From positions 1-46,085 of IMG/VR virus record IMGVR_UViG_3300041955_000186: a stretch of DNA of 46,085 nt, one strand, 5' to 3'. Origin of the DNA: a virus. Positions within the stretch are counted from its first letter, which is position 1, and the number at the start of each line of letters is the position of its first letter. A program made the translations under genes and the position numbers. The notes beneath the pieces were generated by a model, which was not told the origin of the DNA, searched no databases, and saw only the letters and a program-made list of their open reading frames with translations. Below, one piece after another: positions 7,222-46,085 of the stretch.

Positions 7222-7261
7222 CTCGAGACAAACGAAACGAACCCGAAAGGAAACCTTCGGC

Positions 7262-29872: not shown

Positions 29873-29950
29873 TCACCTCCGCTCTCGCGTGACGCTGACC
29901 ATGCGTGTATCGGCACGTTCGCGCCAAAACTTGAGCGTTACTTTTTTCAC
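29873..29950 (-). CDS. 25-residue micro-ORF
   Basis: GTG at 29950 overlaps the primase-helicase TGA (GTGA), encodes MKKVTLKFWRERADTRMVSV plus five residues, and stops exactly within the ribosome site of the next gene (AGGTGA). The double coupling and lack of other explanation for the gap suggest a translated relay peptide. Supported only by position. Confidence 0.45.
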   Translation of the reverse strand: MKKVTLKFWRERADTRMVSVTRERR

Positions 29951-32418
29951 GCGGCCTCACCTCGCGCTACCAAGTGGCCGAGGCCGGGTACCAACAAGTA
30001 ACGGTGATACTCCGGGTGTTTCCGTTCGACTGCGTCGTAAGCTTGCACTAGCCACGCTGCTACGGCACGCGAACCGCCGGGCATCGGAATATCGCGTTCG
30101 CGCTTGGTCCACGAACACAACGCTCCGGGCTTTACGGCCAGGTCCGGCCCCATGTTCCACACGATCGGTACGTTGTTACGGTCGACGTGGCCGGCCGCTT
30201 CCGCTATGGCTTCGAGAATCGGAGGACGGTCGGCTGTAGCCAAGTGCGCGGCCTTCACTACGGATTCGTCGAACGGCGGCAAGTCACAGCCGCAGACTTC
30301 CTCCGAGAACTGTCGAAGCAGCGAGTAGCCCCACTCGGCCACTGCTCGAGCTTGACGTTGTCTGTCCGGTATGGCCGGAGGAGCCGGCAGCTCTCCGAGT
30401 CGAATCAAGTACAAGAGCCACGACAGGTAGGCGTTCCCGAACCCTTCGTGCGACAGGCTGACTACGCGGCCGAGCGCGACTTCGTCGCGGCCCTTGGAAG
30501 GCATCGGCACCATGACCATACGTTCGGCGTGCGCCGTCTCGGAGAACGTGTCTTCTCCGGTAACTGCTATCGGAGCACGTGCCGGTAGCTTCTTGATGTG
30601 CATACGGTTTTCGCTCAAGCCGCCCTTGATGGTGGCCGACCCATCCCACGCGTCGCGGATTACTTGGTCGAGAGCTAGCTTCGCTTCCGGTCGGGCGCCG
30701 GGCCGGTACTCGTCGAACCACATCGGAATGGCGTTCGTAGATCCCGCGTAGCTGTGTACGGCGTGCGCGGTGGTTCCGGTTAGCGTCGTCGGATTGGTGA
30801 CCCAAAAGCCGAACGCTTCGAGGATCGTGCCGAGTAGCGTGGTCTTGCCCCATCCCGAGCCGCCGGTCACGGCTAGCGTCGGGAACTTCGGGACCATAGA
30901 ACGCAGCGGCGCCGCCGCCACCCATCCGAGAACCGGTGTCACTATCTCCGGCTTGTGCAGCCGAGCCAACGCCGACGGTAACTCTCGGTCCCAGTCGTCG
31001 CTCGAGCCCAGTCGAATCGACTGACCGAGGTCGACGTCGTTTTCGGGCGGCACGTATCCCCAACCGCTGTGACCTATCACGGAGTCGGGTAGCACGAACG
31101 CTTCTTCGTGAAGTCCGACTACGTCTGTTCCTCGAACACGCGGGGCCAGTAGAGCCCTGGTCTTCAACAGCTCGAGCAGGTCGGCCAAGTCGCGGTCCGT
31201 TCCCTTCCAGGACAGCAGACGATCGGCGGCCCAACGACGCATCCGTCCGGAACTGGACAGCTCGGCACCGGTCAAGAAGTGTCGGCGTCCGTTTCCGGGA
31301 ACCGACACCTCGAACACTACGTGAGCCTCGCTGGTTTCCATCATTACCAGTCGGCGCGGCGTCAAGACGAAGTCCGACAAGACCACGTCCGGACGTTCGT
31401 CCGAGGTCGACTTGCGAACATAGCGTCCTCCGGACTCGGCTATCGGAAGCGTTCCGGGGTCGACTACCGGCCAAGCTTCTCGAAGGGCTCTCAGTACGAG
31501 AGCCTGTCCGGCCGCCGTGGCGTCCATTCCGTCCGGAAGGCATACCACTCGAACGGACGCTGCCCTCGATGGAAGAGCGGCTACCCACGACGCGGCGCAT
31601 CCTCGGCCGGCTTCGTCGGCGTCGAACAGTAGCGTGACGTGCTTTCCGGCCAACGTGTTGAGCCACTCCGGGCGCGGTTCCTTCACTCCGGCCGGAAGTC
31701 CGAGCACGTCGGCGTCGACGGAGTTTTCGTGGAGAAGCCAAGCCGTAGACCACGTGTCGGTTTCGCCTTCGCACACGACGACGAACTGCCGAGAAGTTCC
31801 GCGCCACGTGCCGTAAAGCTGCGACAGGTCGCTTCCTCGAACTGCTCGGTGCTCCCAGTCCGGCACGAATCGACGCTTGACGCCGACCAGCTCGCCGGTA
31901 GGCGCGTAGTGAGGAATCAAGACCGCGTCGTCGGTGCCGACTACGCCGAACTCGTCGTGAACCCACACGGCCGGCGCTACTACTCCTCGGTCGAGGAGCA
32001 TGGACTCGAGGGACTCGATACGGTCGGCCTCTTCCAACATCCGACCTAGGTCCGGAGTCGGCCCGGCGGTTCTCGGCGCTGGCACCGGCTGGTCCGGTAG
32101 TCCGCCGTCCCTAAGTTCGACGGCCAGGCGCTTGGCTTCCTTGAAGTCGCACCCGTGCCAACGTTCGAGGAAGTCGAACAAGTCGCCGCCGACGTCGCAC
32201 GGCCAACAGCGGAACCTTTGCGAGCCGTCGCTCCCCGTGTAGACTCGGAGCGACGGCTCGTGGTCGTCGTGGAACGGACACAGCCCGGCTAGCTCCCCGT
32301 TGCCGGCGTCCTCGAGTGCTACACCGTAGTGAGTTAGGACGCCGGCGAGCGGAGCCGCCGCTTTGATGGCTTTCGGGTCGTGTCCGGCCGAAGCGGCCGC
32401 GTAGTCGGTCGTGGTCAG
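29947..32418 (-). CDS. primase-helicase (CHC2 zinc finger, Toprim, P-loop ATPase)
   Basis: About 823 residues. The N-terminal zinc finger has Cys47/His50 (CPFHDDHEPSLRVY) and Cys71/Cys74 (FRCWPCDVGGDLFDFLERW). The Toprim domain has Glu217 (VVVCEGETD) and DAD at 266-268. The C-terminal part has Walker A GGSGWGKTTLLG (519-530), as in DUF927-like phage helicases. It would prime and unwind at the phage fork. No ATG, GTG or TTG suits the N-terminus: CTG at 32418 overlaps the upstream TGA as CTGA and gives MTTTDYAAAS, whereas ATG 32484 would run 22 codons inside the membrane gene. I favour the CTG start. Confidence 0.9.
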   Translation of the reverse strand: MTTTDYAAASAGHDPKAIKAAAPLAGVLTHYGVALEDAGNGELAGLCPFHDDHEPSLRVYTGSDGSQRFRCWPCDVGGDLFDFLERWHGCDFKEAKRLAVELRDGGLPDQPVPAPRTAGPTPDLGRMLEEADRIESLESMLLDRGVVAPAVWVHDEFGVVGTDDAVLIPHYAPTGELVGVKRRFVPDWEHRAVRGSDLSQLYGTWRGTSRQFVVVCEGETDTWSTAWLLHENSVDADVLGLPAGVKEPRPEWLNTLAGKHVTLLFDADEAGRGCAASWVAALPSRAASVRVVCLPDGMDATAAGQALVLRALREAWPVVDPGTLPIAESGGRYVRKSTSDERPDVVLSDFVLTPRRLVMMETSEAHVVFEVSVPGNGRRHFLTGAELSSSGRMRRWAADRLLSWKGTDRDLADLLELLKTRALLAPRVRGTDVVGLHEEAFVLPDSVIGHSGWGYVPPENDVDLGQSIRLGSSDDWDRELPSALARLHKPEIVTPVLGWVAAAPLRSMVPKFPTLAVTGGSGWGKTTLLGTILEAFGFWVTNPTTLTGTTAHAVHSYAGSTNAIPMWFDEYRPGARPEAKLALDQVIRDAWDGSATIKGGLSENRMHIKKLPARAPIAVTGEDTFSETAHAERMVMVPMPSKGRDEVALGRVVSLSHEGFGNAYLSWLLYLIRLGELPAPPAIPDRQRQARAVAEWGYSLLRQFSEEVCGCDLPPFDESVVKAAHLATADRPPILEAIAEAAGHVDRNNVPIVWNMGPDLAVKPGALCSWTKRERDIPMPGGSRAVAAWLVQAYDAVERKHPEYHRYLLVPGLGHLVARGEAA

Positions 32419-32570
32419 GACCCCTTCGGACCGCGTATGTACGCGGCGGTGTACCACGTAGCGGCCAAGAACCCAAGCGTCCACAGGTAGCCGAGCGCCG
32501 GAACTTGGTGGTACGTGTGGCTAGCTCCGCCGAGCAGCAGAGTAAACAGCCACGCCAGTACGAATATCAT
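32415..32570 (-). CDS. 51-residue two-helix membrane protein
   Basis: ATG 32570, eight bases after the previous stop. Two hydrophobic segments (IFVLAWLFTLLLGGA and YLWTLGFLAATWYTAAYI) separated by a short polar turn, ending RGPKGS. Predicted hairpin in the membrane. Sits between the recombination and primase genes; function unknown. Its stop overlaps the putative CTG start of the primase-helicase. Confidence 0.75.
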   Translation of the reverse strand: MIFVLAWLFTLLLGGASHTYHQVPALGYLWTLGFLAATWYTAAYIRGPKGS

Positions 32571-32577
32571 CGCGACT

Positions 32578-33108
32578 TCACAGTCCGGGCGGCAGGTCTG
32601 GCGGTCCGGTGGCTACGGCTGTAGCTACTGCCGGAGCTGCTACCGCGACGGCAGGAGCCGCCACGGCTACTTCCGGAGGTGCTGTCGTCGCCGGCACGGT
32701 CGCGGGCTTGATGTTCTTGACCTCGTCGCGTACACGGCCTTGGTACGGCTTGCCGGGGCCGACAGTTATCACGGCTCGGCGACCGAGGAGCGTCTGACAG
32801 ATCAGAGCTTCCTTGTTAGCTTCCGGCAGGCCGGCGAAGAACGCGGCGTCGAGACCGAGAGCGGCCATCTTGCCGAAGAAGTATCCGACCGAGTTCGGGT
32901 TTTCCAGCTTCAACGTGAAGTTGGTAAACACCTTGCGGTTCTTGTGCGGACCGTCGACGATCGTGAACTCGATCCGATACATCGGATTGTCGTTGCTCGA
33001 AGGTCGATACTCGGCGTTGGTGATTTCCGCGTTGTAGTCGATCGCCGGCAGCGGTTCGAGTCCCTTCGCGGCTTGGGCGGCCAGCAGGCCGTAGTCGACG
33101 GTTGCCAT
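32578..33108 (-). CDS. DUF669-like single-strand-binding / recombination protein
   Basis: A 176-residue protein; ATG from the TGATG overlap. PLPAIDYNAEITNAEYRPSS, MYRIEFTIVDGPHKNRKVFTNF and VGYFFGKMAALGLDAAFFAG match the beta-barrel pattern of phage DUF669-type proteins, which accompany Sak4-like ATPases and bind DNA. The C-terminal 40 residues are a low-complexity Ala/Val/Pro repeat (VAVAAPAVAVAAPAVATAVA), resembling the flexible tails of SSB proteins. Directly downstream of the ATPase. Confidence 0.8.
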   Translation of the reverse strand: MATVDYGLLAAQAAKGLEPLPAIDYNAEITNAEYRPSSNDNPMYRIEFTIVDGPHKNRKVFTNFTLKLENPNSVGYFFGKMAALGLDAAFFAGLPEANKEALICQTLLGRRAVITVGPGKPYQGRVRDEVKNIKPATVPATTAPPEVAVAAPAVAVAAPAVATAVATGPPDLPPGL

Positions 33109-33875
33109 CAAGCAGTCTCCTCTTCGTTGTAGACGGCGAGCATTTCCTCGACGTCGGGATTTGTGATGCACGCTCCGTACCGAACGGACAACACGTGTGT
33201 GCGGTCCTTGGCTTCGGAGAACTGTCTAGGGTGAATCAACATACGGCGCCACTCTGCGCCGGAGTCGTCCACCTGTACGAACATGTACCCTTCTACGTCC
33301 ACGTAACCGGGTAGCGACACGCTCAGTCCGCCTTGAATAGCCGGCCTGTTCATGGCGCGCTTGACGTCGGTAAGAGCCAAGAACACCACTGCTTCGAGCG
33401 GGTGGGTCGGATGGAACACCAGGTCGCGCATGTGGCGTACCGTGAACTCCATCTTGTCGAGGAGTCGGCCCCACTTCGCCTCGGTCATCCCTTCGTCGCC
33501 GGCGAGGATCGCGTCCTTACACCGCTTCTGAATCTCGGTTAGCGAGTCGACTACTACCGACTTGAATGGATGAACTCCGAACTCGAGCCAGTTGTACGAC
33601 TTCTCCAACGTCTCGAAGCTTCGAACGATCGTGTGGCACACTTGCCAGTCGCCGAGTTCGGGCGGGTCTTCGTGTTGTGGGTCCCACTCGATCACACGTT
33701 GACGCGTCGGCACGCCGTCCACTAGGCGCCACGGCTTGACACTTCCGCCCTCGGCGTCCAAGACGAGTCGCGGCTCCGGGGTCGTCTGACCGAACCACGA
33801 CTTGCCGACTCCTCCTTCGCCGTGAGCTAGCACGGCTAAGCCACGCCACCCTTCGGGTCGCTTTGTGTTCGTCAT
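33108..33875 (-). CDS. Sak4-like RecA-fold ATPase
   Basis: A 255-residue protein; ATG 33875 is ATGA-coupled. Walker A GEGGVGKS at 19-26, Walker B SVVVDSLTEIQ near 135, and the later HMRDLVFHPTHPLEAVVFLAL and MFVQVDDSGAEWRRMLI stretches fit the AAA_24/Sak4 family of phage single-strand annealing ATPases. With the SSB-like protein and the Cas4/RecB nuclease it makes a recombination cassette. Confidence 0.88.
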   Translation of the reverse strand: MTNTKRPEGWRGLAVLAHGEGGVGKSWFGQTTPEPRLVLDAEGGSVKPWRLVDGVPTRQRVIEWDPQHEDPPELGDWQVCHTIVRSFETLEKSYNWLEFGVHPFKSVVVDSLTEIQKRCKDAILAGDEGMTEAKWGRLLDKMEFTVRHMRDLVFHPTHPLEAVVFLALTDVKRAMNRPAIQGGLSVSLPGYVDVEGYMFVQVDDSGAEWRRMLIHPRQFSEAKDRTHVLSVRYGACITNPDVEEMLAVYNEEETA

Positions 33876-34807
33876 GTAAGCTCTCCCTTTCCGGATTCTG
33901 CGTAACGTGCGTACGGGTCGGACTCTTCGTACAGCGTCGCTATCAGTTGGTCCGGCTTGTCGTTCGGCCTGTCGATTAACCCGCACACGGCGAAGAACGG
34001 GCAGTCCCAGTGACAATTTCGGTTAGGCGACGGGTACACCACTGCCAACGGATTGCCGCCGGCGTCTAGTCGCTTCCTCGTGTTGAGCATGACCTCGAGT
34101 TCTCCAAGCAGTCGTGTACCGAAGCTCTCGATCTCTTGTTCCGAGTACGTGACCGACAGTCGTTCGTAGAACGGAGGAGTGGCTCGAGCCGTGCGCTTGG
34201 ACTTGCGAAGCATGTTGTACAGAGCACCGCCTACCTTCTCGCCAGTCACCTGTTGCAACAGCCAGGCGTACAGCTTCAACTGTTCGTCGAGCGTTAGCGA
34301 CTTCGTCGGAGTCGTGAACTCCTGAACGGTCTTGTGGTCGAGGAACATGTCTGCTCCGTCGTGGACACGACGTGCCCGAAGGTCGAGCTTGGCACTCAGC
34401 TCGACTACTTGGTCTCCGACTCGTACGGGAAGCTCGACGGACTGCTCGGCCGCTACTACACGTAGTCCGGCGTCGGCTCCAGTTTCCTCGAGCCACTCGA
34501 AGTAGCCGGTAAGAATCGCGTCCTCGAGGTCGGCGTCCTTGCGAATGTCCTTCTCCTGTTCGGGAAAGTCGTCCACGGCTCCTTCGACCATGGCGGCGTG
34601 GTAGGCGAGCGCGGCTTCCGTAGCCTTGACTTGTCCGACGGCTTGAACCTGGCCGTAGTACAAGGCGACGCATACGTGAACGCGTGTTCCGATGGCCGAC
34701 GGTCCGTAGGCACGGTCGCGCTTGAGTGCTAGTCGACGGTAGTAGGCGAGCCACCACTTACGTCGGCAACGCTTGAAGCACTGAATCTCGGAGTTACTTA
34801 TCCGCAC
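33872..34807 (-). CDS. Cas4/RecB-like PD-(D/E)XK exonuclease
   Basis: A 311-residue protein. SNSEIQCFKRCRRKWWLAYY at the N-terminus and NCHWDCPFFAVCG near 275 contribute the Cys set of an Fe-S cluster. GTRVHVCVALYYG gives the His of motif I, KLDLRARRV the Asp, and MFLDHKTVQEF the D-x-K, the nuclease core. The Cas4-like order supports 5' to 3' resection of double-strand ends before annealing. Overlaps the upstream membrane gene by 14 bases. Confidence 0.9.
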   Translation of the reverse strand: MRISNSEIQCFKRCRRKWWLAYYRRLALKRDRAYGPSAIGTRVHVCVALYYGQVQAVGQVKATEAALAYHAAMVEGAVDDFPEQEKDIRKDADLEDAILTGYFEWLEETGADAGLRVVAAEQSVELPVRVGDQVVELSAKLDLRARRVHDGADMFLDHKTVQEFTTPTKSLTLDEQLKLYAWLLQQVTGEKVGGALYNMLRKSKRTARATPPFYERLSVTYSEQEIESFGTRLLGELEVMLNTRKRLDAGGNPLAVVYPSPNRNCHWDCPFFAVCGLIDRPNDKPDQLIATLYEESDPYARYAESGKGELT

Positions 34808-35033
34808 GGCCCCACCTTCTCCAACCGTTCATGTACAGCACTGCCCACACGGCCGACCAAGGAAGAAGACTCCACAGGTGCGGCGTAACTACGAAGCACA
34901 GCCATACCCACAACGCTTGACTAGCCGCGCCGACGAGAAATCCCGAACGCCACTTGTGTCCGACCATCCACACGCCTAGGGCTCCGAAGAAGTTCGGCAA
35001 GAACGACACGACTTGCACCCACAGTTCACTCAC
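34794..35033 (-). CDS. 79-residue membrane protein
   Basis: GTG 35033 overlaps the helicase stop (GTGA). Three short hydrophobic stretches (LWVQVVSFLPNFFGALGVWM, FLVGAASQALWVWLCFVV, SLLPWSAVWAVLYM) with very high Trp content. Resembles small PnuC-like or transporter-like fragments but too short to assign. Function unknown. Confidence 0.72.
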   Translation of the reverse strand: MSELWVQVVSFLPNFFGALGVWMVGHKWRSGFLVGAASQALWVWLCFVVTPHLWSLLPWSAVWAVLYMNGWRRWGRADK

Positions 35034-36724
35034 GACGCCACCATCCTGGACAACGCTTGACGGTCTCGAGTGATTATCTCGAGCCGCTCGCCTTTTTCGG
35101 CTATGGCTTCGTGTTGTGCTTCTTCCACGGTTCCGGGTGCGATCAAGTCCACTATCGTGACGCTGTCGGCTTCTTGTCCTTGGCGGTGTATACGGTCTTC
35201 GGCCTGTCGGTTCTCGAGCATGGACCATGACCGCTGCATGAAGCACGCCGTCGCCGCCCGTGTCAACGTCAAAGACTCGGAGCCGGCGCCGAGCGTCAGC
35301 AGCAGTACGCGTATGCGACCTTCGTCGAAGTCGTCCTCGGCCGCTTCGCGTGCTCGGTCGGTCTGAGCGCCGACCACCAAGCCGTGCGGAATCTTCTCTT
35401 TCTCAAGCCGCTCGGACGCGAGTCGAATAAGCTGCTTGCTCTGCGCGAACACGACCAACTGTTCGTCGCCCATGTCCTCGAGCAACTCGACCAATGCGTC
35501 TACCTTGCTGGACGGAGAGCACATCCGTACTTCTCCGTCGGCGTTCACTTCGATCGACGCCGCGGCGCACTGTGTCAAGCGGGTTAGCCGCGTGAGCGGG
35601 TCGAGCGCCAGGGCAGTTCCTCCCTCGAGGTCGGCTAGTAGTTCCTTCTTGAGCTGTCGGTAAGCCTTCTCTTGACGTGGCGTCATGTCGACGTGTCTAG
35701 GTTCGTACACCTTCGGAGGTAACCAAGGAAGAACCAAGCTCTTCGGTCGACGCAGGAACCGCCTGTCGGCCAGTGCGTAAAACTCGGTCTCCATTCCCGG
35801 ACGCAGTCCCGGAATGTCGACGGCTCCCCAGTAGTTGCGTCGCACCTCGAAGTACCTGTCGGTAGTCTTGCTTCGACTGGTCCACTCGTTCGGAGACACG
35901 AACCGCAGCGCCGCCCAAAAGTCGTCGAGCGCGTTGGCTATCGGAGTACCGGTCACCGCCAGACGTTGTCCGGCCGAGTCGCCTACGGCCCAAAGGGCTC
36001 GAGTCTGCTTAGCTTTCGGATTGCACGCGCGGTGCCACTCGTCGGCTACTACCGCCGCCCATTCTCTGTTCAGCTCCTTGTTCTCGCGTTCGGTAGGCGC
36101 CAAACGAATCGAGCCGAACGGAGCCAGCCGACTGTGTAGGCGAAGCGCGTCCCACCCGACTACGTACACGTCGTGCCCTCGAGCCAGCTTGGCGCGTCGA
36201 CTCGGAGCGTTGCCGTCGACCACCATCACGTCGAGACCGGTCGACCACTTGGCGAACTCTTTGCGCCACACGCGTCGACCGACGCGGCGTGCTACCACCA
36301 ACGCCGGGAACAGCTTCTCGGCCTCGAGCCACGCGATAGCCTGCGCCGTCTTGCCCGTTCCCATTTCGTCGGCCAGGATCGAACTGCCGGCGGCTCTCAA
36401 GAACTGGACTCCGGTGCGTTGGTACGGATGGAACCGAGGATCGCCGGGTGCGTCGTTGTTCGGATTCATGGCGAACTCTCGAGCGGCCATGGTCGGTTCG
36501 ACGTAGCCGGACCACTCGGCCCACGCCCACGCCGACAGGGCCGACGACACGCCGAGACGTTCGGCGAAGCTAGTCTTCAAGACCTTGAGCGTCGCCCACG
36601 TCAGCGGAGCGGACCACACGTCGTCTCGATACCGGACGCCTTGTAAGGACTGAACCGCGAACTCGTCGCGGAACCCGACGTCGGACAGGACGATTCGACC
36701 GGAGTCGAGGTCGGCGTTAGGCAC
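35030..36724 (-). CDS. SNF2/SWI2-family helicase
   Basis: A 564-residue protein, GTG start. Contains all main superfamily 2 motifs: FHPYQRTGVQFL (Q-like), ILADEMGTGKTAQAIAW with Lys125 (I), VVADEWHRACNP in place of DEAH (II), RLAVTGTPIAN (III), GLVVGAQTDRAREAAEDDFD and VLLLTLGAGSESLTLT (V), and QAEDRIHRQGQ (VI). The N-terminal 95 residues carry a HARP-like or substrate domain. It probably remodels forks or recombination intermediates with the neighbouring RuvC-like and polymerase genes. The Trp in motif II (DEWH) is uncommon. Confidence 0.93.
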   Translation of the reverse strand: MPNADLDSGRIVLSDVGFRDEFAVQSLQGVRYRDDVWSAPLTWATLKVLKTSFAERLGVSSALSAWAWAEWSGYVEPTMAAREFAMNPNNDAPGDPRFHPYQRTGVQFLRAAGSSILADEMGTGKTAQAIAWLEAEKLFPALVVARRVGRRVWRKEFAKWSTGLDVMVVDGNAPSRRAKLARGHDVYVVGWDALRLHSRLAPFGSIRLAPTERENKELNREWAAVVADEWHRACNPKAKQTRALWAVGDSAGQRLAVTGTPIANALDDFWAALRFVSPNEWTSRSKTTDRYFEVRRNYWGAVDIPGLRPGMETEFYALADRRFLRRPKSLVLPWLPPKVYEPRHVDMTPRQEKAYRQLKKELLADLEGGTALALDPLTRLTRLTQCAAASIEVNADGEVRMCSPSSKVDALVELLEDMGDEQLVVFAQSKQLIRLASERLEKEKIPHGLVVGAQTDRAREAAEDDFDEGRIRVLLLTLGAGSESLTLTRAATACFMQRSWSMLENRQAEDRIHRQGQEADSVTIVDLIAPGTVEEAQHEAIAEKGERLEIITRDRQALSRMVAS

Positions 36725-37166
36725 GCGGCGCCTCCATACGTCCAGTACGAACCATCCACAGCATAAGGTGTCGGAGTGCGTCGTTGGCGTGACCCAAGCC
36801 GGGGCGGTACCATCCGGCGGCCTTGAGTCGTGCGTTGGTGGCGAACTCCTTGGCGTCGAACGGCGTCTGCAACTTCTCGAGAGTGACGTTGTCTCGCCTG
36901 TCGGCCAACGACCGAACGGCTCCGATCACGTGCAGTGCGTCGTACTGACGTGTTAGCTTGGTAGTGCGCTCGGATATGTTGTACCGTTCGCATACGACGT
37001 GAACGTCGTAGTCTCCGTACAATCCGGCCCAGCTCTCGAGAGCCCGGACCAGTTCTCCGAACGGCATTTCGTTGGCGCTCGGACGCTGCTCGTGTGTGGC
37101 TTCGTAAGCCGCTACTCCGGTGGTCAGTCCGGGGTCGAGTGCGATAAGTAGCTCAGTCTTCCGCAT
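36717..37166 (-). CDS. RuvC-like Holliday junction resolvase
   Basis: A 149-residue protein. RNase H fold acids: Asp11 (IALDPGLTTGVA), Glu60 (VVCERY), and HANDALRHLMLW with His126 and Asp129. This is the standard actinophage RuvC-like resolvase, which cuts branched DNA before packaging and during recombination. Overlaps the polymerase stop by 14 bases and the helicase start by 8. Confidence 0.88.
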   Translation of the reverse strand: MRKTELLIALDPGLTTGVAAYEATHEQRPSANEMPFGELVRALESWAGLYGDYDVHVVCERYNISERTTKLTRQYDALHVIGAVRSLADRRDNVTLEKLQTPFDAKEFATNARLKAAGWYRPGLGHANDALRHLMLWMVRTGRMEAPRA

Positions 37167-38880
37167 ACTTGTCGCCCCATCTTTCGTGAAGAATCGAATA
37201 GCTAGCCGGCATAGGAACCGTGAGGTCGTCGCGGTACATGATCCGTCTAGCTTCTTCGGCGAACTCTTCCGCGTCCCCCTTCGGAACGTCGAAGACGAGT
37301 TCGTCGTGTACCGGAAGTACGAGGTGCTCGGTAAGTCCGGCGCGGTCTAGCCGAACTATCGACTGCTTCAACACGTCGCCGGCCGTGCCCTGCACCAAGT
37401 AGTTCACCAGCTTGTAGACCTTGTCGGCCGGCACCACTTGGCGTCGACCGAACGGAGTAAGCGCGTAGCACACGCCTTCTTCGGCCGCTCGCATCGTGGC
37501 TTCGTGTTGCACCTTCTGTTGCCAGACTTTTACGCCGGGAAACGTGGCGTCGTATCCTTGGAGGAACGCCGCCGCGGTGGAGTCGTCTACTCCGGCCGTA
37601 ACTGCGAACTTGTGAAGACCGGCCAAGTACGCCTTGGCGTAGGCGGCTTTCTTGATAAGCGAACGTCTTGGGTCTTTCTTCTCGAACGTCGGTTCGTCGT
37701 ACAGTCGACGGCCCATGTTCACGAAGAAGTCGCCCTCGGACGCAAAGGCTTCGATCATTCCTTGATCTTGCGAGAAGTGTGCTACGAGGCGCTGTTCTAT
37801 TTGGTCGTAGTCGAGGCTAACCAGCACGTGACCTTCTCGAGGAATGAACGGGTCGCGTACGAGCTTGCTCCGCGGTATCTGTTGCAGAGCCGGTCGCTCG
37901 GCCGACATACGTCCGGTGCGTGCGCCCATACAGTTGATGCTCGTGTGCAGAATGTCGCCGTCCGCGTACTCGACGTAGTTCCCAAAGTACGCGTTGGCGT
38001 AACGGTTCAGCTTTCGAACGTTCAACACCGCCTTGGCGAGAGGATGGTCGAGACCTTCTAGGACTTCTTCGTCTACCGACCAACTACCGCCGGCCGTTCT
38101 CTTGGTGAGGAGCACGCCGTCGGACATGAGTTGCGCCGACACTCGCTGGTTTTGTCCGGGACCGAATCCGTAACGTTCCTTGCACCAAGCCGTCGTCTGT
38201 TCGGACACGGCCAACAGCTCGGCGCGTTTGGTTTCGCAGTAGGGAACGTCGACGCGGATACCTCGACGCTCCATGGCGTCGACTACGTTCGAGCACGCCA
38301 TTTCCATGTCGTACAGTTCGGCCTGTGCTCCGACGATTTGTGGCTCGAAGAGTTCGTACAGGTGCACCGTCAGTACCGGATCGAGCGCGGCGTACGCCCA
38401 GTACGCCGTAACCCATACCGGAATCGTGCGCCAGTTCCACATACCCTTCGTCATGGCTCGAGCTAGTTCGCTCTTGCCTTGCTCGGCTCCGGGGTCTACG
38501 TACTTGACGCCTAGATACTTGAGTCCGGTCTTTTGGTCCGGATGCAATAGGTGCGCCATGGTGATGGTGTCGTGTACGTTCTCGCGACGCAGGGTGCAGC
38601 CGTTCGTCTCGAGGTATCGGACGTCGAACTTCGAGTTATGAAACACGATCGGCCTGTCGTACCTGTGCAACGCGTGCATAGCGAGACCACCCCACAGCTC
38701 CCACGGAACGGCCCATCCGTCGGCCAGGTCTCCGAACTGAACCAAGCGCAGCGGCTCGCGCCACCAGTCGAATCCGCCGGTCTCGGTATCGCAACCGAGA
38801 ATCTGCCGACGTTCGCCTAACCAACGCACGAAAGCTTCGGCGTCGAAGAAGTCCTCTACGAGGTGAAGCTGCGCCTGCAC
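37153..38880 (-). CDS. DNA polymerase I (family A) with 3'-5' exonuclease
   Basis: A 575-residue protein. Exonuclease domain intact: Asp31/Glu33 (DTETGG), Asp86 (HNSKFDVRYL), and Tyr163 with Asp167 (YWAYAALDPV). Polymerase motif A SLDYDQIEQRLVAHFS (Asp357), motif B RSLIKKAAYAKAYLAG with Arg406, Lys410, Tyr414 and Tyr418, motif C LPVHDELVFDVP (His525, Asp526). There is no 5' nuclease domain. The O-helix position usually held by Phe in bacterial Pol I is Tyr414, as in T7 polymerase, a substitution known to relax discrimination against dideoxynucleotides. GTG overlaps the upstream TAG. Confidence 0.95.
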   Translation of the reverse strand: MQAQLHLVEDFFDAEAFVRWLGERRQILGCDTETGGFDWWREPLRLVQFGDLADGWAVPWELWGGLAMHALHRYDRPIVFHNSKFDVRYLETNGCTLRRENVHDTITMAHLLHPDQKTGLKYLGVKYVDPGAEQGKSELARAMTKGMWNWRTIPVWVTAYWAYAALDPVLTVHLYELFEPQIVGAQAELYDMEMACSNVVDAMERRGIRVDVPYCETKRAELLAVSEQTTAWCKERYGFGPGQNQRVSAQLMSDGVLLTKRTAGGSWSVDEEVLEGLDHPLAKAVLNVRKLNRYANAYFGNYVEYADGDILHTSINCMGARTGRMSAERPALQQIPRSKLVRDPFIPREGHVLVSLDYDQIEQRLVAHFSQDQGMIEAFASEGDFFVNMGRRLYDEPTFEKKDPRRSLIKKAAYAKAYLAGLHKFAVTAGVDDSTAAAFLQGYDATFPGVKVWQQKVQHEATMRAAEEGVCYALTPFGRRQVVPADKVYKLVNYLVQGTAGDVLKQSIVRLDRAGLTEHLVLPVHDELVFDVPKGDAEEFAEEARRIMYRDDLTVPMPASYSILHERWGDKYAED

Positions 38881-39413
38881 TAGCTCGGAGCCTCCTCGAG
38901 TGCCCTCTCTTCTTCTTCACGTGCCTTGGCTACGAGAGCCTCGGCTATCCGTTCGGGAGAAGCCTTCTCGGTGTTGGCCACTACCCAAGGAACTCGACTC
39001 CAGGTAATAGCCTTCTCGAACGACAGGTGCTCGGCGAGCAGACGTTCCGGAACGGCTACCTCTCCTCGAGCCTCGAGGCGCGCCACGAGAGTGTCGACGC
39101 GTGCTTGACACAGACAGCCGAACGCTCCGAGACGGATCAAGAACGACTCGACGGCCGCCCACTCGATAGGACTGAGTCCGCATCGACCTCGGTCCAGCTT
39201 CCCGTACACGCGCTCCGACATGTGCCAGCGGTCGCACACGATGTGCAGAGCCGTGCCCGGATGGTACCGAGCTAGGCCGGCGGTGGATTCGGTCAACGGG
39301 TGTCGGTCTTCCGGTGGTAACTGACGCAAGACAGTGAAGTCGTACGCGTTCTTGAGCACGTCGGCCACGCTCGTCTTGCCCGCGCCGTTTGCTCCGTCGA
39401 GAAGGATTAACAC
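38880..39413 (-). CDS. deoxynucleoside-monophosphate kinase-like protein
   Basis: A 177-residue P-loop protein. Walker A DGANGAGKTS at 6-15, the CDRWHMSERVYG motif (DRx(H) substrate side) and LLAEHLSFEKAITWS place it in the thymidylate/dNMP kinase superfamily. Likely supplies dNTP precursors during replication. Starts at GTG 39413 and abuts the polymerase, so it is coupled to it. Confidence 0.82.
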   Translation of the reverse strand: MLILLDGANGAGKTSVADVLKNAYDFTVLRQLPPEDRHPLTESTAGLARYHPGTALHIVCDRWHMSERVYGKLDRGRCGLSPIEWAAVESFLIRLGAFGCLCQARVDTLVARLEARGEVAVPERLLAEHLSFEKAITWSRVPWVVANTEKASPERIAEALVAKAREEEERALEEAPS

Positions 39414-39565
39414 CGGCCGTCCAGTTCGCTGCCCATGAAGAAGATCACTGCGCTACACAGGAACGTACCGACTAGCACGCGTGGTCCGTCAGCGGCCCAT
39501 ACGAGAACTCCCGACACGGCGAACGCACCGAACAACGCGAAGAACAAGGAACGTCGAGCGTTCAC
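39407..39565 (-). CDS. 52-residue membrane protein
   Basis: GTG 39565 overlaps the upstream TGA. Two hydrophobic stretches (SLFFALFGAFAVSGVLVWAA and VLVGTFLCSAVIFFM) flank a short polar turn. Function unknown; third small membrane protein of the leftward operon. Confidence 0.7.
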   Translation of the reverse strand: MNARRSLFFALFGAFAVSGVLVWAADGPRVLVGTFLCSAVIFFMGSELDGRC

Positions 39566-39726
39566 TTGACGATCACTACCAAGTCCGACTCGGCCATTAG
39601 TGCCTTGCACTCGGACGTAGTACGCTTCCAGTGAACTAGCGCGAGCTTGTCCTTCTCGAACCAATGCACGACGATTCCGCGCACCATACGGTTCGTCTTG
39701 AGTCCGACCATGGAGCCCTTCCTCAT
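39562..39726 (-). CDS. 54-residue SH3-like protein
   Basis: ATG 39726 overlaps the upstream TGA (ATGA). GSMVGLKTNRMVRGIVVHWF and DKLALVHWKRT form two likely beta hairpins, then a helical ESDLVVIVK end. Small barrel expected. Unknown function. Confidence 0.65.
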   Translation of the reverse strand: MRKGSMVGLKTNRMVRGIVVHWFEKDKLALVHWKRTTSECKALMAESDLVVIVK

Positions 39727-40358
39727 TGTGGAATCGCTCTCCACAGGTCCGAAGGCATGACTTCGTACACGTCTCCCCACGTGTGGTACCAGCCGGCGAA
39801 CCGCAAGGCTTCGGCCGCCACGGCGGAACATATCCACGTTCCGTCACGACGAAGACTCACGAACTTGGGAGTGAGAATGTCGAGTGCTATGCTCGCGATC
39901 GTCAGGAAACCGTAGCGTTCACCGACTTGTAGTCGCATGAACTTGACGACTTCCTCCGGCAACGCAGGGAACGGACAAGGAACTACTACGTATTTACCAC
40001 CTGGTGCTACCGTGTCGAGAGGTGCTCGAGACACACCGCGTGCTTGCGCTTGAAGAACGAATCGTGTGTCGTCGTCTACGACGGCGACGTGATTCGGCTT
40101 CCAAGCACGGGTACTAGCCTCGGTGTACAAGTACGCCAAGACTGGCGCTAAAAGTAGTACCGACGTGAGTGCTAAGGCCGGGCCGGCTGCTCCACACAAG
40201 AACGGTGCTATGACAGCAAACGTAGTTAGCGCACCGGCTAGCCACACAGCCGGCCGTCGCAGACGTTCGCCGAGACGGATGGCCCGTCCGATAGTCCCTC
40301 GACTCTCACAGAAGACTAGGTCTCCCGGCTTAGCTATGGCAGGCACGACGGTCAACAT
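39723..40358 (-). CDS. membrane-anchored permuted papain-like (NlpC/P60, YiiX type) protein
   Basis: A 211-residue protein; ATG from the TGATG overlap. AKPGDLVFCESRGTIGRAIR begins a NlpC/P60-like fold. Two membrane segments (about 38-56 and 58-80) are inserted, then WKPNHVAVVDDD gives His90 and GTWICSAVAAEAL gives Cys177. His before Cys marks the circularly permuted (YiiX/YaeF) class, known to act on lipids or isopeptides rather than only peptidoglycan. The inserted membrane hairpin is unusual. Could be a lysis, superinfection-exclusion or ubiquitin-like-modifier-processing enzyme; the last is speculative but notable given Pup. Confidence 0.72.
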   Translation of the reverse strand: MLTVVPAIAKPGDLVFCESRGTIGRAIRLGERLRRPAVWLAGALTTFAVIAPFLCGAAGPALALTSVLLLAPVLAYLYTEASTRAWKPNHVAVVDDDTRFVLQAQARGVSRAPLDTVAPGGKYVVVPCPFPALPEEVVKFMRLQVGERYGFLTIASIALDILTPKFVSLRRDGTWICSAVAAEALRFAGWYHTWGDVYEVMPSDLWRAIPQ

Positions 40359-40870
40359 CAACGAATCTCGTCGACCAAGCCGAACGCGAGAGCTTCGTCG
40401 GAGCTGATCCACCAGTCCTTGCGCTTCCCGATGGCCGACGTGGTCACTCGGTGGCCGCGATCGCGTAGTGCCTGTATGAAGTCGAACAGAGCCATGCCGG
40501 CCACCAGGGCGCCGCCCGGACTGTTGAAGATGATCTCTATGTCGCAGCGTGGATCGGTGCGTGTCCACTCGGTCAAGGTCTCGAGCGCCTTGGTGACGCT
40601 TCCGGAGTTCACGTCTCCGTAGAAGGTGAGAACGTGGTTACGCACGTCGGCCGCGAGTTCCTTCTTACGATCTTCTCGCTTGCGTTCCAGGTTGATGGCG
40701 TCGGTGTCGGCCTCGATCTCGGCTACTCGAGCGTGAGCCTCGGCTTGGCGCGTCATGTACTCGACCTCGCGCTTGCGCTCTTCGTAGTAGTCGGCCAGCG
40801 CGTTGAAGTGCCGCGCCTCCGCCTCGAGCTTGGTTCGCTGTGCTTCGGTTTCCTCGCCTGTAGCGGTCAC
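40358..40870 (-). CDS. ClpP-like protein with catalytic region deleted
   Basis: A 170-residue protein, GTGA-coupled start. Residues 1-75 are a charged coiled coil (ERKREVEYMTRQAEAHARVA). From 78 it is clearly ClpP/crotonase-like: NHVLTFYGDVNSGSV, CDIEIIFNSPGGALVAGMAL, DRGHRVTTSAIG. It then jumps directly to KRKDWWISSDEALAFGLVDE, the normal C-terminus of such proteins. About 70 residues holding the catalytic Ser loop, the His and the Asp are absent, in frame. It cannot be a serine protease by this mechanism. Possible roles: structural partner or decoy for a host ClpP-like oligomer (inference). Confidence 0.82.
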   Translation of the reverse strand: MTATGEETEAQRTKLEAEARHFNALADYYEERKREVEYMTRQAEAHARVAEIEADTDAINLERKREDRKKELAADVRNHVLTFYGDVNSGSVTKALETLTEWTRTDPRCDIEIIFNSPGGALVAGMALFDFIQALRDRGHRVTTSAIGKRKDWWISSDEALAFGLVDEIR

Positions 40871-41538
40871 GCGCTCTCCTTCCGAGCTAGGTCGTCCATC
40901 AAGAGTGCCAGTGCCAACGTCGCGTAGTTGGCTCTGTCGAGGTACGTGTCGTCTACGGACTCGTTGCGCGGCCTGCGACCGCTCGAGCGCAGTGCCCGAA
41001 GACGGGACTGCTTCAACTCCACCAACAGGTCGGCGGCTTGGTAGGCGCCCTGGAGGATCTCTTGAGCCGCCATGTCGTCGAAGTTGCTGCGCCAACTGGC
41101 GTCGGTTGCGTAGTCCGCGTTCTTGGCCCCGAGCACGTCGCACATTCGAGATATCGCTCGACGGATCGGAAGCGGAAGAGCGGCTCGACCCGGAGTCGGT
41201 ATCGGCTCCATGGTGTCGTCGTCGTAGAACTGGCTACCGCACAGCGCGGCTAGACGAATCTCTATATCCGCTCCGGGACTGTTCTCCCAGCCCGACAACA
41301 GAGCTATGTTCTCGCACGACATGAGAGCCGGAAGGTCGTCCTGCATGGCTTCTCGGTACGTCAGACGGCGGCGCTTGGCGGCCTTCTTGGCGCGCATTCT
41401 GTTGAGTTCGCGCGGACTTATGACAGTCCATCCGGCCTTCTCCCAACGTCGAGCCGAACGTTCGAACGCCGGATAGTTGAGCCGAGGTATACCGGTCATG
41501 GGGCCGGCTATGTATATGCGGCCTTTCGTGTCGGTCAC
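40867..41538 (-). CDS. DUF4406-type protein with fused C-terminal nucleotide-binding-like domain
   Basis: A 223-residue protein, GTG start. GRIYIAGPMTGIPRLNYPAF and GWTVISPRELN, with CENIALLSGWENSPGADIE, match the DUF4406/nucleoside deoxyribosyltransferase-like fold. The second half (ISRMCDVLGAKNADYATDAS and WRSNFDD) matches the small phage domain with the K-x2-DYA pattern, related to MazG-type nucleotide hydrolases or regulators. Probably acts on deoxynucleotides (salvage or dNTP pool). Both halves are usually separate phage proteins, so this is a fusion. Confidence 0.72.
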   Translation of the reverse strand: MTDTKGRIYIAGPMTGIPRLNYPAFERSARRWEKAGWTVISPRELNRMRAKKAAKRRRLTYREAMQDDLPALMSCENIALLSGWENSPGADIEIRLAALCGSQFYDDDTMEPIPTPGRAALPLPIRRAISRMCDVLGAKNADYATDASWRSNFDDMAAQEILQGAYQAADLLVELKQSRLRALRSSGRRPRNESVDDTYLDRANYATLALALLMDDLARKESA

Positions 41539-41903
41539 GGGTACACGTCTCCGTTTACTTCACACATGTGGTCTTCGTACGGCACGGCCACTCGGCGGTA
41601 GAACTCCTTCTGCGCGCACCCGACGGCGCCGACGCAGTCGTCGGACGATCCGCAGTCGGAGAAGTAAAACACTCGACACAGCTCCATAATGCCGTACTCG
41701 AGTCCTTTTCCTCGGTGCCATATACCGTTTCGAATGTTGTCCTTGGCGACTTCGCACGCCGCTTCGACTTCGTTGATGGTCGCGTAACGCGGGCACCTAG
41801 TCCACTCTTGTACGAACAGCAGAGTTATGGAGTAGTTGAGTTCTCCGACTGTCTCCGGAGCAGCAAACGCGTGGACCCTGCGCTCGGGAACTATGTACGG
41901 CAT
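41535..41903 (-). CDS. 122-residue phage protein (DUF6899-like)
   Basis: ATG from the TAATG overlap. MPYIVPERR, ETVGELNYSITLLF, YATINEVEAACEVAKDNI and KEFYRRVAVPYEDHMCEVNG are recurrent blocks of a widespread actinophage family of unknown function. Six Cys scattered across the middle may bind metal. No mechanistic clue. Confidence 0.75.
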   Translation of the reverse strand: MPYIVPERRVHAFAAPETVGELNYSITLLFVQEWTRCPRYATINEVEAACEVAKDNIRNGIWHRGKGLEYGIMELCRVFYFSDCGSSDDCVGAVGCAQKEFYRRVAVPYEDHMCEVNGDVYP

Positions 41904-42752: not shown

Positions 42753-43913
42753 TTAGACGTACGTGTTCTCGGTTTTTTCAAGTTTGGGACCGTAAGTACT
42801 ATGACCACATGCTGTGCAGTGGAAACGTCGTCTGCGTGTTTTCACGTTCACTTGCCATCCCTGGGTGATCATTTTTCCCGTAACCAAACACACAGGACAC
42901 ACGTTAGGTCGATCAGGTATATTCTTCTTTCGTATTCCTAACGGAAGTCCCGAAGGTTCTTGTTCAGAGTGGCCGCACGCTTTACACTTGAAGCGTCGGC
43001 GAGGTCCACCCGTTGTATATGATCGACTATCAGCTACGAATGTGTTTTTACCACCACACTCAACACACAACTTAGGTCGAGTCGGTATGTCTTGAAGCGA
43101 TGCTGTCGTGTCTCGAGGCTTTCCGGTACGTTCAGAACACCTATGACCACAAGACCGGCACTGAAAACGTCGGTAACGTCGTGTAGACGTTAGTTCCCAG
43201 CCCCTACTTTGCATGGTTCCTTCTGCTCCACAGTTCGGACACATGTTTGGTCGATTAGCTATGGCGCCGAGGTTTGGGTGTCGTGGCATCCACGGACGTA
43301 TTTTGAGATACAGCCCTTCAAGAAGCTTGACGTCGTGCGCGTTGTAGCGACGCATCCTGGCCCAAGCTTTCGCGTCTCCATCCATGCACTTGCGCCAGGT
43401 CTCGAACCCGCCGGTATCTAGCTTCTTGCCGACTCCGAGCTGTTGACACAGGTCGTCTAGTCGGTTGCGCGTGAACCCGAAGTGAGCCTTAGCCACGCGG
43501 AACGTGTCGACCTCCTTGTACGGACTAGGCGGCTGCAGTCCGTGTACAAGCATCCGAGCTTGTGCTTTTTTCGTGTCGAACGCTATGCTGTTGTGTCCGA
43601 CTATCACGTCGGCCTCGTCGAACAGCTTGTGCAGCAGAAGAGCTAACTCGTAGTCGTCCGTGCGGTCCTTGCGCCACCTCTTCGGGAAGTCAGGAAGAAT
43701 AGCGACGTGCGTTTCGCGATCTCCGACCCACTTCCAAGCAACGGAAAGGATGTACCACTCGGCTTCGATGTTGTGGACGTTCGTATGCCATATCTCGAAA
43801 ACCCAAGCGGCTAACGGCGCAGTCTCAATATCGAAGAGCAGAATACGCGGCTCACGTTGAGCTTCGGTGTTGTCCGTTGTACTCAAAGTAGTCGGCTGTC
43901 TTCGTGGTGTCAC
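42753..43913 (-). CDS. RNase H-like 3'-5' exonuclease fused to three zinc ribbons
   Basis: A 386-residue protein. Residues 20-205 are a DnaQ/family-B-type exonuclease: Asp28/Glu30 (LLFDIETAPL), HNSIAFDTKKAQ with Asp113, YNAHDVKLLEG with Tyr190 and Asp194. Residues 220-372 hold three tandem zinc ribbons of about 57 residues, each CxxC ... CxxCGH: Cys225/228 with 252/255, Cys283/286 with 310/313, Cys339/342 with 366/369. The ribbons probably bind DNA or RNA. Such a C-terminal triplet is not usual for this exonuclease. The zinc part is visibly richer in A/T than its surroundings. Confidence 0.88.
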   Translation of the reverse strand: MTPRRQPTTLSTTDNTEAQREPRILLFDIETAPLAAWVFEIWHTNVHNIEAEWYILSVAWKWVGDRETHVAILPDFPKRWRKDRTDDYELALLLHKLFDEADVIVGHNSIAFDTKKAQARMLVHGLQPPSPYKEVDTFRVAKAHFGFTRNRLDDLCQQLGVGKKLDTGGFETWRKCMDGDAKAWARMRRYNAHDVKLLEGLYLKIRPWMPRHPNLGAIANRPNMCPNCGAEGTMQSRGWELTSTRRYRRFQCRSCGHRCSERTGKPRDTTASLQDIPTRPKLCVECGGKNTFVADSRSYTTGGPRRRFKCKACGHSEQEPSGLPLGIRKKNIPDRPNVCPVCLVTGKMITQGWQVNVKTRRRRFHCTACGHSTYGPKLEKTENTYV

Positions 43914-43918
43914 GTCAC

Positions 43919-44839
43919 TCAGCTCCGATTTCCGCTAGGGATCGGCGGCGCGGGCGGAGGTGTCGGCGGCGTAGCCTGCTTCACAAGCCACGCGATAGCC
44001 GTCCGCAAGTCCTGGAAGTGCGCTTGCGCCTCGGGAGTAGCTAGAAACTCGGCTAGTGCGACGTGTGCGCCCTTCACCTGTGCTTCGTTGGCCCACCACG
44101 CCCAAGCCTGCAAGGACTCCGGGCCGCGTACGAGGAACAGCGCGTACCACAACAGCGACATGTACAGCGCCGTGGCTTGGTCGTTCGGCAGTACCGACGC
44201 GTCGGTGGCGAACACGGTGAGCCCGTCGGTCACTTGGTCCGTCGGCTGCTTGCCGGGGAACCAAAACGTGTCTATGAAGCCGTCGCGCAGACACACGTCT
44301 TCGTCGAAGTCGCTCGTCGGAACTCCCGGAATGCCGACCGTCGGCGACAGGCGTTGATACAGGGCGGCGTTCGCCGTGTCGACTTCTCCGCCGCTCCAAG
44401 CCACCGTCTGCCAGTGGTCGTTGCCGAATCCCCACTCGGCCAACGCGTCGCAAATGGCGGCGTCTCCGTAACCCTTGACCGGACGTAGGCCGGCCGACTG
44501 CGCTCCGAGGAAGTACGCCTTGACCGAGTTCGGGTCGACCTCTTCGTCTACGGCGTAGAACAGCGGAACGTCGGACGGGTACCCGAGAGAGTCGGCCTGC
44601 GAGTTGGCCGCGGACGCGTCGTCGTATCCGGCGCCACCTCCGGCGGTGGCTCGAGTGGCAGTCGTCTCCCACGCGCATCGAACGCCGAGACCGACTACGC
44701 CGAGTGCTTGCGCCTCGGCTTGGGACAGGTTCTTCGTCGGGTCGGTACTTAGGTAGCGCACGACGCCTTTGTAGCCGGCCGCCGCTATGGCGGCAGGACT
44801 AGGACGCGTCCACGCGTAGTCGATTACGAGGTCGCTCAA
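43919..44839 (-). CDS. DUF1906 glycoside-hydrolase-like protein (lysis candidate)
   Basis: A 306-residue protein; TTG start 44839 behind AAGGAGCC, since the frame has no ATG or GTG nearby. VIDYAWTRPSPAAIAAAGYK, GVVRYLSTDPTKNLSQAEA and PLFYAVDEEVDPNSVKAYF match the DUF1906 (Rv2525c-like) TIM-barrel domain found in actinobacterial secreted enzymes and actinophage lysins; Asp97/Glu98 in the third motif are candidate catalytic acids. A helical domain and a Pro-rich tail (PPTPPPAPPIPSGNRS) follow. Likely acts on the peptidoglycan/arabinogalactan envelope. It lies on the leftward operon, far from the tail-side peptidase. Confidence 0.82.
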   Translation of the reverse strand: MSDLVIDYAWTRPSPAAIAAAGYKGVVRYLSTDPTKNLSQAEAQALGVVGLGVRCAWETTATRATAGGGAGYDDASAANSQADSLGYPSDVPLFYAVDEEVDPNSVKAYFLGAQSAGLRPVKGYGDAAICDALAEWGFGNDHWQTVAWSGGEVDTANAALYQRLSPTVGIPGVPTSDFDEDVCLRDGFIDTFWFPGKQPTDQVTDGLTVFATDASVLPNDQATALYMSLLWYALFLVRGPESLQAWAWWANEAQVKGAHVALAEFLATPEAQAHFQDLRTAIAWLVKQATPPTPPPAPPIPSGNRS

Positions 44840-44848: not shown

Positions 44849-45025
44849 TTACACCTTCTCCAGTACGATCGTCACTTCGATTCGGTCGGGCTCGCGTCGG
44901 AAACGCACCGGAACACGCGGCATCCACGGTCCAGGGTGTCGGCCACGCGGGTAGCTTCCGACGTAGCTACCGTGTCCGTAAGACCCGGAGCCGTCGATTC
45001 GAACCCACTTGTATAACGTGGTCAC
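44849..45025 (-). CDS. 58-residue basic hypothetical protein
   Basis: GTG 45025 overlaps the upstream TGA. Gly/Ser/Tyr-rich N-terminal half (GSGSYGHGSYVGSYPRG) and Arg-rich beta-like C-terminal half (MPRVPVRFRREPDRIEVTIV). Function unknown. Confidence 0.65.
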   Translation of the reverse strand: MTTLYKWVRIDGSGSYGHGSYVGSYPRGRHPGPWMPRVPVRFRREPDRIEVTIVLEKV

Positions 45026-45282
45026 TGGTCGATCGACTCCTGGTAGGCGATGCCGAACACGAGAGCCGCGATCTTGAAGGCGCGGCGACGCTGCTTGCAC
45101 CAACGAACGTTCTCGACGTTGGTCGGATCGTCTAAGAGCGTGTGCTCGGCGGCGGCCCACCTGTCCAAGAGAGTGTGAGCCCTAGCTCGAGCCGTCTCGA
45201 CGCCGCCGCCGGCTTGGTGCAGTTGAACTAGGCCGTGCTCGGCCTTTCGAAACAGCTTCTCGCTCTTGGCGGCTTCGCTCAC
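45022..45282 (-). CDS. 86-residue helical hypothetical protein
   Basis: GTG 45282 overlaps the Pup stop (GTGA), so it is coupled directly to Pup. Entirely helical with KSEKLFRKAEHGLVQLHQAG, ARARAHTLLDRWAAAEHTLL and KIAALVFGIAYQESI. No family recognised. Immediate partner candidate for the Pup-like protein because of the coupling (inference). Confidence 0.72.
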   Translation of the reverse strand: MSEAAKSEKLFRKAEHGLVQLHQAGGGVETARARAHTLLDRWAAAEHTLLDDPTNVENVRWCKQRRRAFKIAALVFGIAYQESIDQ

Positions 45283-45476
45283 TGTCCTCCTGACTGGACG
45301 AATCCTCCGACGAACGCTTGAGCGTTCTCCTCGAGAACGCGGTCGATCTCGTCGAGCAGCTCTTCGGTCTTGGAGTCCAGCTCTTCGACCTCCGGACGGT
45401 CGGTCGGCTTCGGAGTCTCGGGCTCCTCGGTCGCAAGATCGACTACAGGCTTTCGAACTTGTGTCCGTTCCGGCAT
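45279..45476 (-). CDS. pup: prokaryotic ubiquitin-like protein Pup
   Basis: A 65-residue protein of normal Pup length. The C-terminal 30 residues have the complete Pup signature: ELLDEIDRVLEENAQAFV followed by GGFVQSGGQ, ending GGQ. By family knowledge the final Gln is deamidated by Dop to Glu and ligated by PafA to lysines of targets for the proteasome, while the helix before it docks on Mpa/ARC. The N-terminal half is acidic and disordered (EEPETPKPTDRPEVEELDS), also typical. The VQKGGQ lysine of mycobacterial Pup is Ser here. Leaderless-looking ATG; first gene of the leftward operon. No PafA, Dop or proteasome gene is in the window, so it would rely on the host. Confidence 0.93.
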   Translation of the reverse strand: MPERTQVRKPVVDLATEEPETPKPTDRPEVEELDSKTEELLDEIDRVLEENAQAFVGGFVQSGGQ

Positions 45477-45594: not shown

Positions 45595-45884
45595 GGACAG
45601 TTCAGGACGCTTCGGGACAGTTCAGGACAGTTCACGAAACGCGTCCGCGAAACAAGACACCAGGTAGACATAAGGATTAGACAGGACAAAGGACAGTTGG
45701 ACAGTTCACAAGAGATATACACCACGTGAGAAGAAGGGTCGTCTCTCTCGTAAATACTCGGTCGGTGTATGTCCGCGGGCTCTAAACCGTCTGAACTGTC
45801 CAAAACATAGTCTGACCTGCCAAAACATGCGTTTTTCGACCTCTCCGAACTGTCCTGAACTGTCCAGGCCGTCCCGAACTGTCC
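45595..45884. repeat. inverted clusters of GGACAGTT(C) repeats
   Basis: Plus-strand copies GGACAGTTCA at 45595, 45615, 45625 and 45699, and GGACAGTTGG at 45691. Minus-strand copies (TGAACTGTCC or CGAACTGTCC) at 45792, 45846, 45856 and 45875. Copies are often directly abutting (10-bp steps at 45615/45625 and 45846/45856). Around 45791-45827 there is also a longer direct repeat ending CCAAAACAT. The left cluster points right and the right cluster points left, with the centre at about 45740. Confidence 0.85.
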
Positions 45885-45944: not shown

Positions 45945-46085
45945 ATGCCGGGCGAGCCGGAAGGTGGCCCGCAAGAACTCACGCCGGAACAGGCGGCGGC
46001 TGCCACAGCCGAGTTCTTGCGGAAACTCGACGACAACGACCAGGCTCTTCCCGAGAACTTGCCGCTAGCGCCTCTGTACACGTTC
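45945..46085 (+). CDS. rightward gene, cut by window edge
   Basis: ATG 45945 with the duplicated promoter upstream; 47 codons are open to the window edge. Begins MPGEPEGGPQELTPEQAAAA and continues with helical acidic sequence (EFLRKLDDNDQALPENLPLA). Too short to classify. Position before the presumed terminase/portal side of a circular map makes small terminase or another early packaging gene possible (inference only). Confidence 0.7.
   Translation, partial: MPGEPEGGPQELTPEQAAAATAEFLRKLDDNDQALPENLPLAPLYTF

Follow-up and report, generated by a model that had tools for sequence, protein, structure and literature searches.

In the window, by which we mean the whole stretch of DNA that was analysed (a virus record of 46,085 bases), a gene for a prokaryotic ubiquitin-like protein (Pup) stands at the head of a tightly packed, translationally coupled leftward operon. 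The features concerned, in window coordinates, are:

29084-29449, minus strand: WhiB-family regulator (PF02467)
29947-41903, minus strand: rest of the leftward replication/nucleotide module
42753-43913, minus strand: DnaQ-like DNA polymerase exonuclease subunit (PHROG 403)
43919-44839, minus strand: endolysin with an Rv2525c-like glycoside-hydrolase-like domain (PHROG 13480, PF08924)
44849-45025, minus strand: 58-aa gene, joined to the 86-aa gene through another GTGA overlap
45022-45282, minus strand: 86-aa gene, coupled to pup by a GTGA overlap, no family match
45279-45476, minus strand: pup, 65 aa (PF05639, TIGR03687, PDB Pup chains)
45595-45884, both strands: array of eight exact GGACAGTTC sites, four on the plus and four on the minus strand

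That pup heads a leftward operon had been claimed from the letters alone, in what we call the sequence-only reading, and the gene order bears this out: the TGA of pup overlaps the GTG of the 86-aa gene, the stop of the latter overlaps the GTG of the 58-aa gene, and after a 9 bp gap come the endolysin gene and then the DnaQ-like exonuclease gene. The remainder of the module (29947-41903) includes genes for a primase, a RecB-type exonuclease, an SNF2 helicase, a RuvC-like protein, DNA polymerase I and a DUF4406 protein, and a 122-aa gene. The AGGAGG ribosome-binding site of the 86-aa gene lies inside the Ser-Gly-Gly codons of pup (TCA GGA GGA), and the end of pup, TCA GGA GGA CAG TGA (window 45260-45300), thus doubles as Shine-Dalgarno sequence and start overlap for its neighbour. 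The 86-aa product is predicted to form three helices in an AlphaFold model and had neither a family match nor significant relatives; an IMG/VR pattern search likewise gave no relatives of the endolysin. No sigma-70 consensus promoter was found at the pup locus. The GGACAGTTC sites, arranged in opposing groups and found nowhere else in the window, sit between the pup operon and a divergent rightward ORF at 45945, and this array is probably a phage operator or replication-origin region.

The 65-aa ORF translates to MPERTQVRKPVVDLATEEPETPKPTDRPEVEELDSKTEELLDEIDRVLEENAQAFVGGFVQSGGQ and is a true Pup. It matches the Pfam family Pup (PF05639; E-value 1e-13, 52.4 bits against a cut-off of 27), the NCBIfam model pupylate_cterm (TIGR03687; 2e-13, 50.1 bits against a cut-off of 41.45) and the solved Pup chains 3m91_B (7e-8) and 7px9_G (9e-8). 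Because both profiles and the solved chains all match, with the profile scores above the curated cut-offs, a chance or compositional match is ruled out; the family assignment made in the sequence-only reading from the C-terminal signature thus holds, including under the profile search that it had proposed as a check. The ORF is covered by no PHROG family, and a codon model built from the contig's other genes gives it a positive coding score. The PafA/Mpa-binding helix motif LLDEIDxVLEENAxxFVxxFVQ is present at residues 40-61, and the protein, with its C-terminus FVQSGGQ, ends exactly in Gly-Gly-Gln. The residue before GG[QE], a highly conserved lysine that ligation does not require and that is therefore not a criterion of the profile, is here a serine, at the position equivalent to K61 of Mtb and Msm Pup; in all, four residues that are near-invariant in hosts differ (D38 to E, E53 to Q, R/K57 to G and K62 to S), and the lysines left are K9, K23 and K36. 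A genome scan with this Pup as sole query gave no confirmed relatives, so the gene was not recently copied from any of the sampled hosts.

The carrier is a phage, as had been read from the sequence: structural and integration genes (portal, head maturation protease, major capsid, tape measure, tail and integrase) and replication-type genes (DNA polymerase I, primase, SNF2-type helicase, RecB-type exonuclease and DnaQ-like exonuclease) share the record, and the portal, head protease, major capsid, tape measure and integrase on the same contig place it in the Caudoviricetes. A terminase (phrog_2) was not found in the record and genes are cut at both ends (1-1475 and 45945-46085), so the record must be a fragment. 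The capsid matches 57 phage records, every one of them a mycobacteriophage (31-35% identity among the best matches listed), and the polymerase has its best matches in Arthrobacter and Micrococcus phages (about 40%). Together with the WhiB-family regulator, these matches point to an actinobacterium as the putative host. Elsewhere in the window we noted a tRNA-Gln gene (anticodon CTG; 7150-7222, plus strand) within the structural region, a pair of genes resembling those for DNA methyltransferases on the leftward arm (23607-25307 and 26279-27184, minus strand), and a protein matching phrog_1128, of the host-takeover category (39723-40568, minus strand), a similar-looking counterpart of which lies directly after pup in another Pup contig (L151, 10117-10656). 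There is also a ClpP-like protein (PF00574, phrog_94; 40358-41143, minus strand), related to ClpP-like proteases of mycobacteriophages, in which the profile match spans only positions 15-75 of 182 and is directly followed by a ClpP-like C-terminal motif; its catalytic middle seems to be missing.

In profile tests of the window record, neither PafA/Dop (PF03136, ligase/depupylase) nor the 20S proteasome (PF00227) was found, so that this fragment contains no Pup-proteasome gene cluster of linked dop/pafA and proteasome genes; Dop/PafA is present at nearly all cellular Pup loci. This agrees with the earlier statement that the ligase, deamidase and proteasome genes are missing from the window, and because these genes are absent the phage Pup would have to act through the host pathway, as was also proposed. 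The protein is of the GGQ form, which is incompetent for ligation until deamidated by Dop (PMC10465538, PMC8223512), and therefore the host presumably has Dop.

To what extent the Lys to Ser replacement would alter chain formation can be judged from published biochemistry. In M. smegmatis, free di-Pup and poly-pupylation of IdeR both use K61 as acceptor, while K7 and K31 build the chains on PafA; K-to-R mutants of Pup pupylate PanB with similar efficiency, and K61R Pup conjugates normally to PanB and forms no di-Pup (PMC4783102). Since serine replaces the acceptor lysine equivalent to K61, the window Pup should not form K61-type di-Pup, and to this extent the earlier claim that the replacement changes chains on this residue is supported (PMC4783102). 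It does not extend to chains in general, which would not be abolished because K9, K23 and K36 remain.

Phage pup is a recurrent orphan gene and the window is not a one-off. IMG/VR scans with a four-Pup alignment, the Pup of Streptomyces phage Dagobah and a 14-Pup alignment, plus one DNA pattern hit (L181), yielded 52 further virus contigs with Pup; Dagobah, which has the only genuine Pup among 50,697 annotated phage records, brings the further records to 53. With the window this makes 54 Pup virus records and 40 distinct 36-residue cores, and every Pup record that was checked with the profile scored above its cut-off. Siphophages and T4-like phages are among them, as is a contig of 296 kb. PafA/Dop (PF03136) was found in none of 53 Pup-bearing virus records tested (24 + 29; L015, a short near-copy of L014, stands outside this count) and the proteasome (PF00227) in none of 17. 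Portal (phrog_12) and/or terminase (phrog_2) genes are present in 24 Pup records, the window and Dagobah included; many of the records that have neither are short, and absence from a fragment proves little. Four hits to a degenerate DDVLEENA DNA pattern (L172, L174, L178, L180) are non-Pups and were excluded from the counts, and the record MT835496.1 (L004; 'Bacteriophage sp.' in GenBank, 159 kb, from human faeces), apparently mis-binned, is a bacterial chromosome with Dop-Pup-PafA and was moved to the host set. In cellular genomes, a Pup match was obtained in 177 of 396 Actinomycetota genomes, exactly one in each; no second, prophage-borne copy was seen among the 396, and prophage Pups are therefore rare or absent in this sample. 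A plasmid search gave two weak matches, both to very large replicons.

Comparison of these Pups reveals what is kept and what is lost. The GG[QE] terminus is present in 40/40 phage cores (22 GGE, 18 GGQ) and in each of the 109 distinct cores from hosts (35 GGE, 74 GGQ), where GG was part of one scan pattern and not of the other, and every tblastn-confirmed locus has this end. Across the phage cores L41, I44, D45, L48, E49, N51, A52, F55, V56 and Q61 are fully or almost fully conserved; phage and host Pups have the invariant helix positions and the Q-x-G-G end in common, and the phage N-terminus is of the disordered type and of host length. The residue before GG is lysine in all 109 distinct host cores, the hosts all being Actinomycetota, whereas in the 40 phage cores it is K 31 times, R 7 times and V and S once each (Fisher p=3.5e-6 for lysine in phage versus host, with rows that are not phylogenetically independent), and a minimum of 4 changes on the tree is needed at this position. 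The pooled pN/pS of the last 30 codons was 0.10 in the T4-like set and 0.13 and 0.19 in two terminase-adjacent clades, and the C-terminal core is thus under purifying selection in three phage clades; the window Pup, which lies outside these clades, has no close relative. The N-terminal part of the T4-like set had a pN/pS of 0.46, and the Dagobah/L017 pair, with few differences, had a core pN/pS of about 1. A tree of phage and host Pups, built from 40 columns, has 9 host/phage changes and is compatible with a single origin; on this weakly resolved tree L005, L142 and L146 cluster with the window Pup (SH-aLRT 95).

The genes around pup differ between phages. In T4-like phages (L010, L022-L029), the capsids of which are 62-66% identical to those of T4-like phages of marine bacteria, pup lies between UvsY (phrog_231) and a helicase in the UvsW position and encodes a Pup ending in QRGGE. 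It lies just upstream of the terminase in another group (L014/L016/L148/L155, L157, L162, L168), inside the head module in L147, and in the order portal-pup-...-capsid in L161. It adjoins thymidylate synthase in L142 and dCMP deaminase in L005, and an endolysin is near in Dagobah and L146. By tblastn synteny, homologues of the window replication module (DnaQ, the 122-aa gene, SNF2, RecB, RuvC-like, DUF4406, polymerase or primase) surround pup, co-directionally, in L154, L144, L153 and L159/L160, with the DnaQ-like homologue near pup in L154, L159/L160 and L153. This shared surrounding places pup in the replication/nucleotide module of window-like phages, and since it sits in head, packaging or lysis modules elsewhere no single timing or role can be assumed for all phages. 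The nearest capsid relative of the window phage, L110, is without Pup.

What might such a protein do? The sequence establishes the family, the location in a phage, the lack of the enzymes, the conservation of residues for interaction and ligation, selection in related phages and recurrence, and against this background we lean, with some reserve, towards the view that the window Pup is a conjugation-competent tag donor that would enter the host PafA/Dop/Mpa pathway and partly escape Pup-on-Pup linkage. From here we infer early expression, conjugation, a benefit to the phage and which proteins would be targets. Pup would be transcribed leftward together with the phage replication/nucleotide genes, host Dop would deamidate its GGQ end to GGE, and host PafA would activate the C-terminal glutamate and attach the protein to lysines of host proteins and perhaps of phage proteins too. 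The tagged proteins would next pass to Mpa/ARC and, in hosts that have one, to the 20S proteasome. Pupylation in infection would in this way be raised or redirected, and with the di-Pup acceptor lysine lost the phage Pup supply would not be wasted on itself. A role as donor fits best because the ligation-specific residues, the Mpa-binding helix and an N-terminus of the length of a threader are kept, in a pathway in which Mpa binds Pup helix 21-51 and threads the N-terminus (PMC8755798), and because the enzymes are absent and related Pups are under purifying selection. Ligation by host PafA is not guaranteed, however, because near-invariant host positions diverge in the window Pup.

The main rival is a saturating decoy or inhibitor: abundant free phage Pup would occupy PafA, Dop or Mpa and thereby shield phage proteins or halt a host response. 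The binding determinants for PafA and Mpa are indeed conserved in phage Pups, the window Pup is altered at positions 53, 57 and 62, which are near-invariant in hosts, and the GGQ form cannot ligate before Dop acts (PMC10465538). Yet the GG[QE] end kept in 40/40 phage cores would be dispensable for a pure binder, and it supports donation because only ligation needs the exact terminus; moreover, the GGE end of 22 of the 40 cores is ligation-ready without Dop. We therefore regard a decoy as unlikely. Tagging of structural or replication proteins of the phage itself, whether to remove them at a set time or to modify them without degradation, ranks next and appears more doubtful still. Such a role would suit the pup genes within the head module (L161, L147), just upstream of terminase (L014, L157, L162, L168) or between uvsY and uvsW in T4-like phages, but placement varies by lineage, the window pup adjoins lysis and replication genes, and a phage protein as target is hypothetical.

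Horizontal gene capture is common in phages, and pup might have been captured from a host and be a passenger without function in infection. The Dagobah/L017 core, which lacks clear constraint, and the lack of pup in L110 would be in keeping with this. We consider it improbable, however, given the purifying selection in three other phage clades, the repeated occurrence on unrelated backbones where no host genes flank pup, the operon context shared among window-like phages and the translational coupling of the window pup. Mis-binned bacterial DNA or misassembly, for which the MT835496 precedent and the position of pup 600 bases from the contig end and beside repeats could be cited, has a negligible chance of being correct and bacterial contamination is in practice rejected, as overlapping genes tie pup to the endolysin, DnaQ and polymerase genes on the side opposite the repeats, portal and/or terminase genes occur in the 24 records mentioned, and Dagobah is a sequenced isolate.

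Returning to the Pup as donor, our data suggest that phages commonly feed or hijack the host protein-tagging pathway. A bolder generalisation, which we put forward tentatively and would not yet bet on, is that phages at large use an orphan, conjugation-competent Pup, often with its acceptor lysine removed, to turn host ligase and proteasome on host proteins or defences. Ubiquitin is routinely exploited by viruses of eukaryotes, and hijacking of pupylation, if true, would be the prokaryotic parallel. A recurrent phage Pup kept by selection makes phage use of pupylation directly testable, with cultured Dagobah (on S. coelicolor) at hand. Such work might uncover the proteins that induced pupylation naturally targets and hint at anti-phage roles of the proteasome. 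It might also provide tools in the form of Pup donors resistant to self-linkage, whose C-terminal remnant, Ser-Gly-Gly-Glu for the window Pup, differs from the Lys-Gly-Gly-Glu of host Pup.

The sequence-only reading knew of no established role for a phage Pup, and our full-text searches for Pup or pupylation together with phage, among open-licence papers, gave no report of one either. A review from 2025 on proteasomal degradation in bacteria says nothing of phages, and the paper on the Dagobah genome (PMC7650747) mentions neither ubiquitin, proteasome nor Pup, the Pup being an annotation of the record only. Compared with actinobacterial Pup (M. tuberculosis Rv2111c), the window Pup has the same length, acidic make-up, C-terminal helix and GGQ end, and its core is identical to the best host match at 24 of 36 positions (L040, Frankiales). 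It differs in being phage-encoded, away from dop/pafA/prcBA/mpa, and in having Ser for the invariant Lys before GG and Gly for Arg/Lys at 57. The Dagobah protein (HUN42_00036, QMP84414.1, 'ubiquitin-like protein Pup') is likewise an orphan Pup beside an endolysin, in a phage without PafA/Dop/proteasome as in the window, and has also lost the lysine before GG (to Val); unlike the window Pup it ends in GGE, is 78 aa long with an inserted acidic stretch and has a primase/polymerase gene after it. The IMG/VR orphan Pups (L005, L142, L146, L154, L159 and others) resemble that of the window in lying on enzyme-free phage contigs, but their backbones differ and most end in GGE or retain the lysine. 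The family itself is known, and what is new is an orphan, recurrent, phage-borne Pup with lysine loss.
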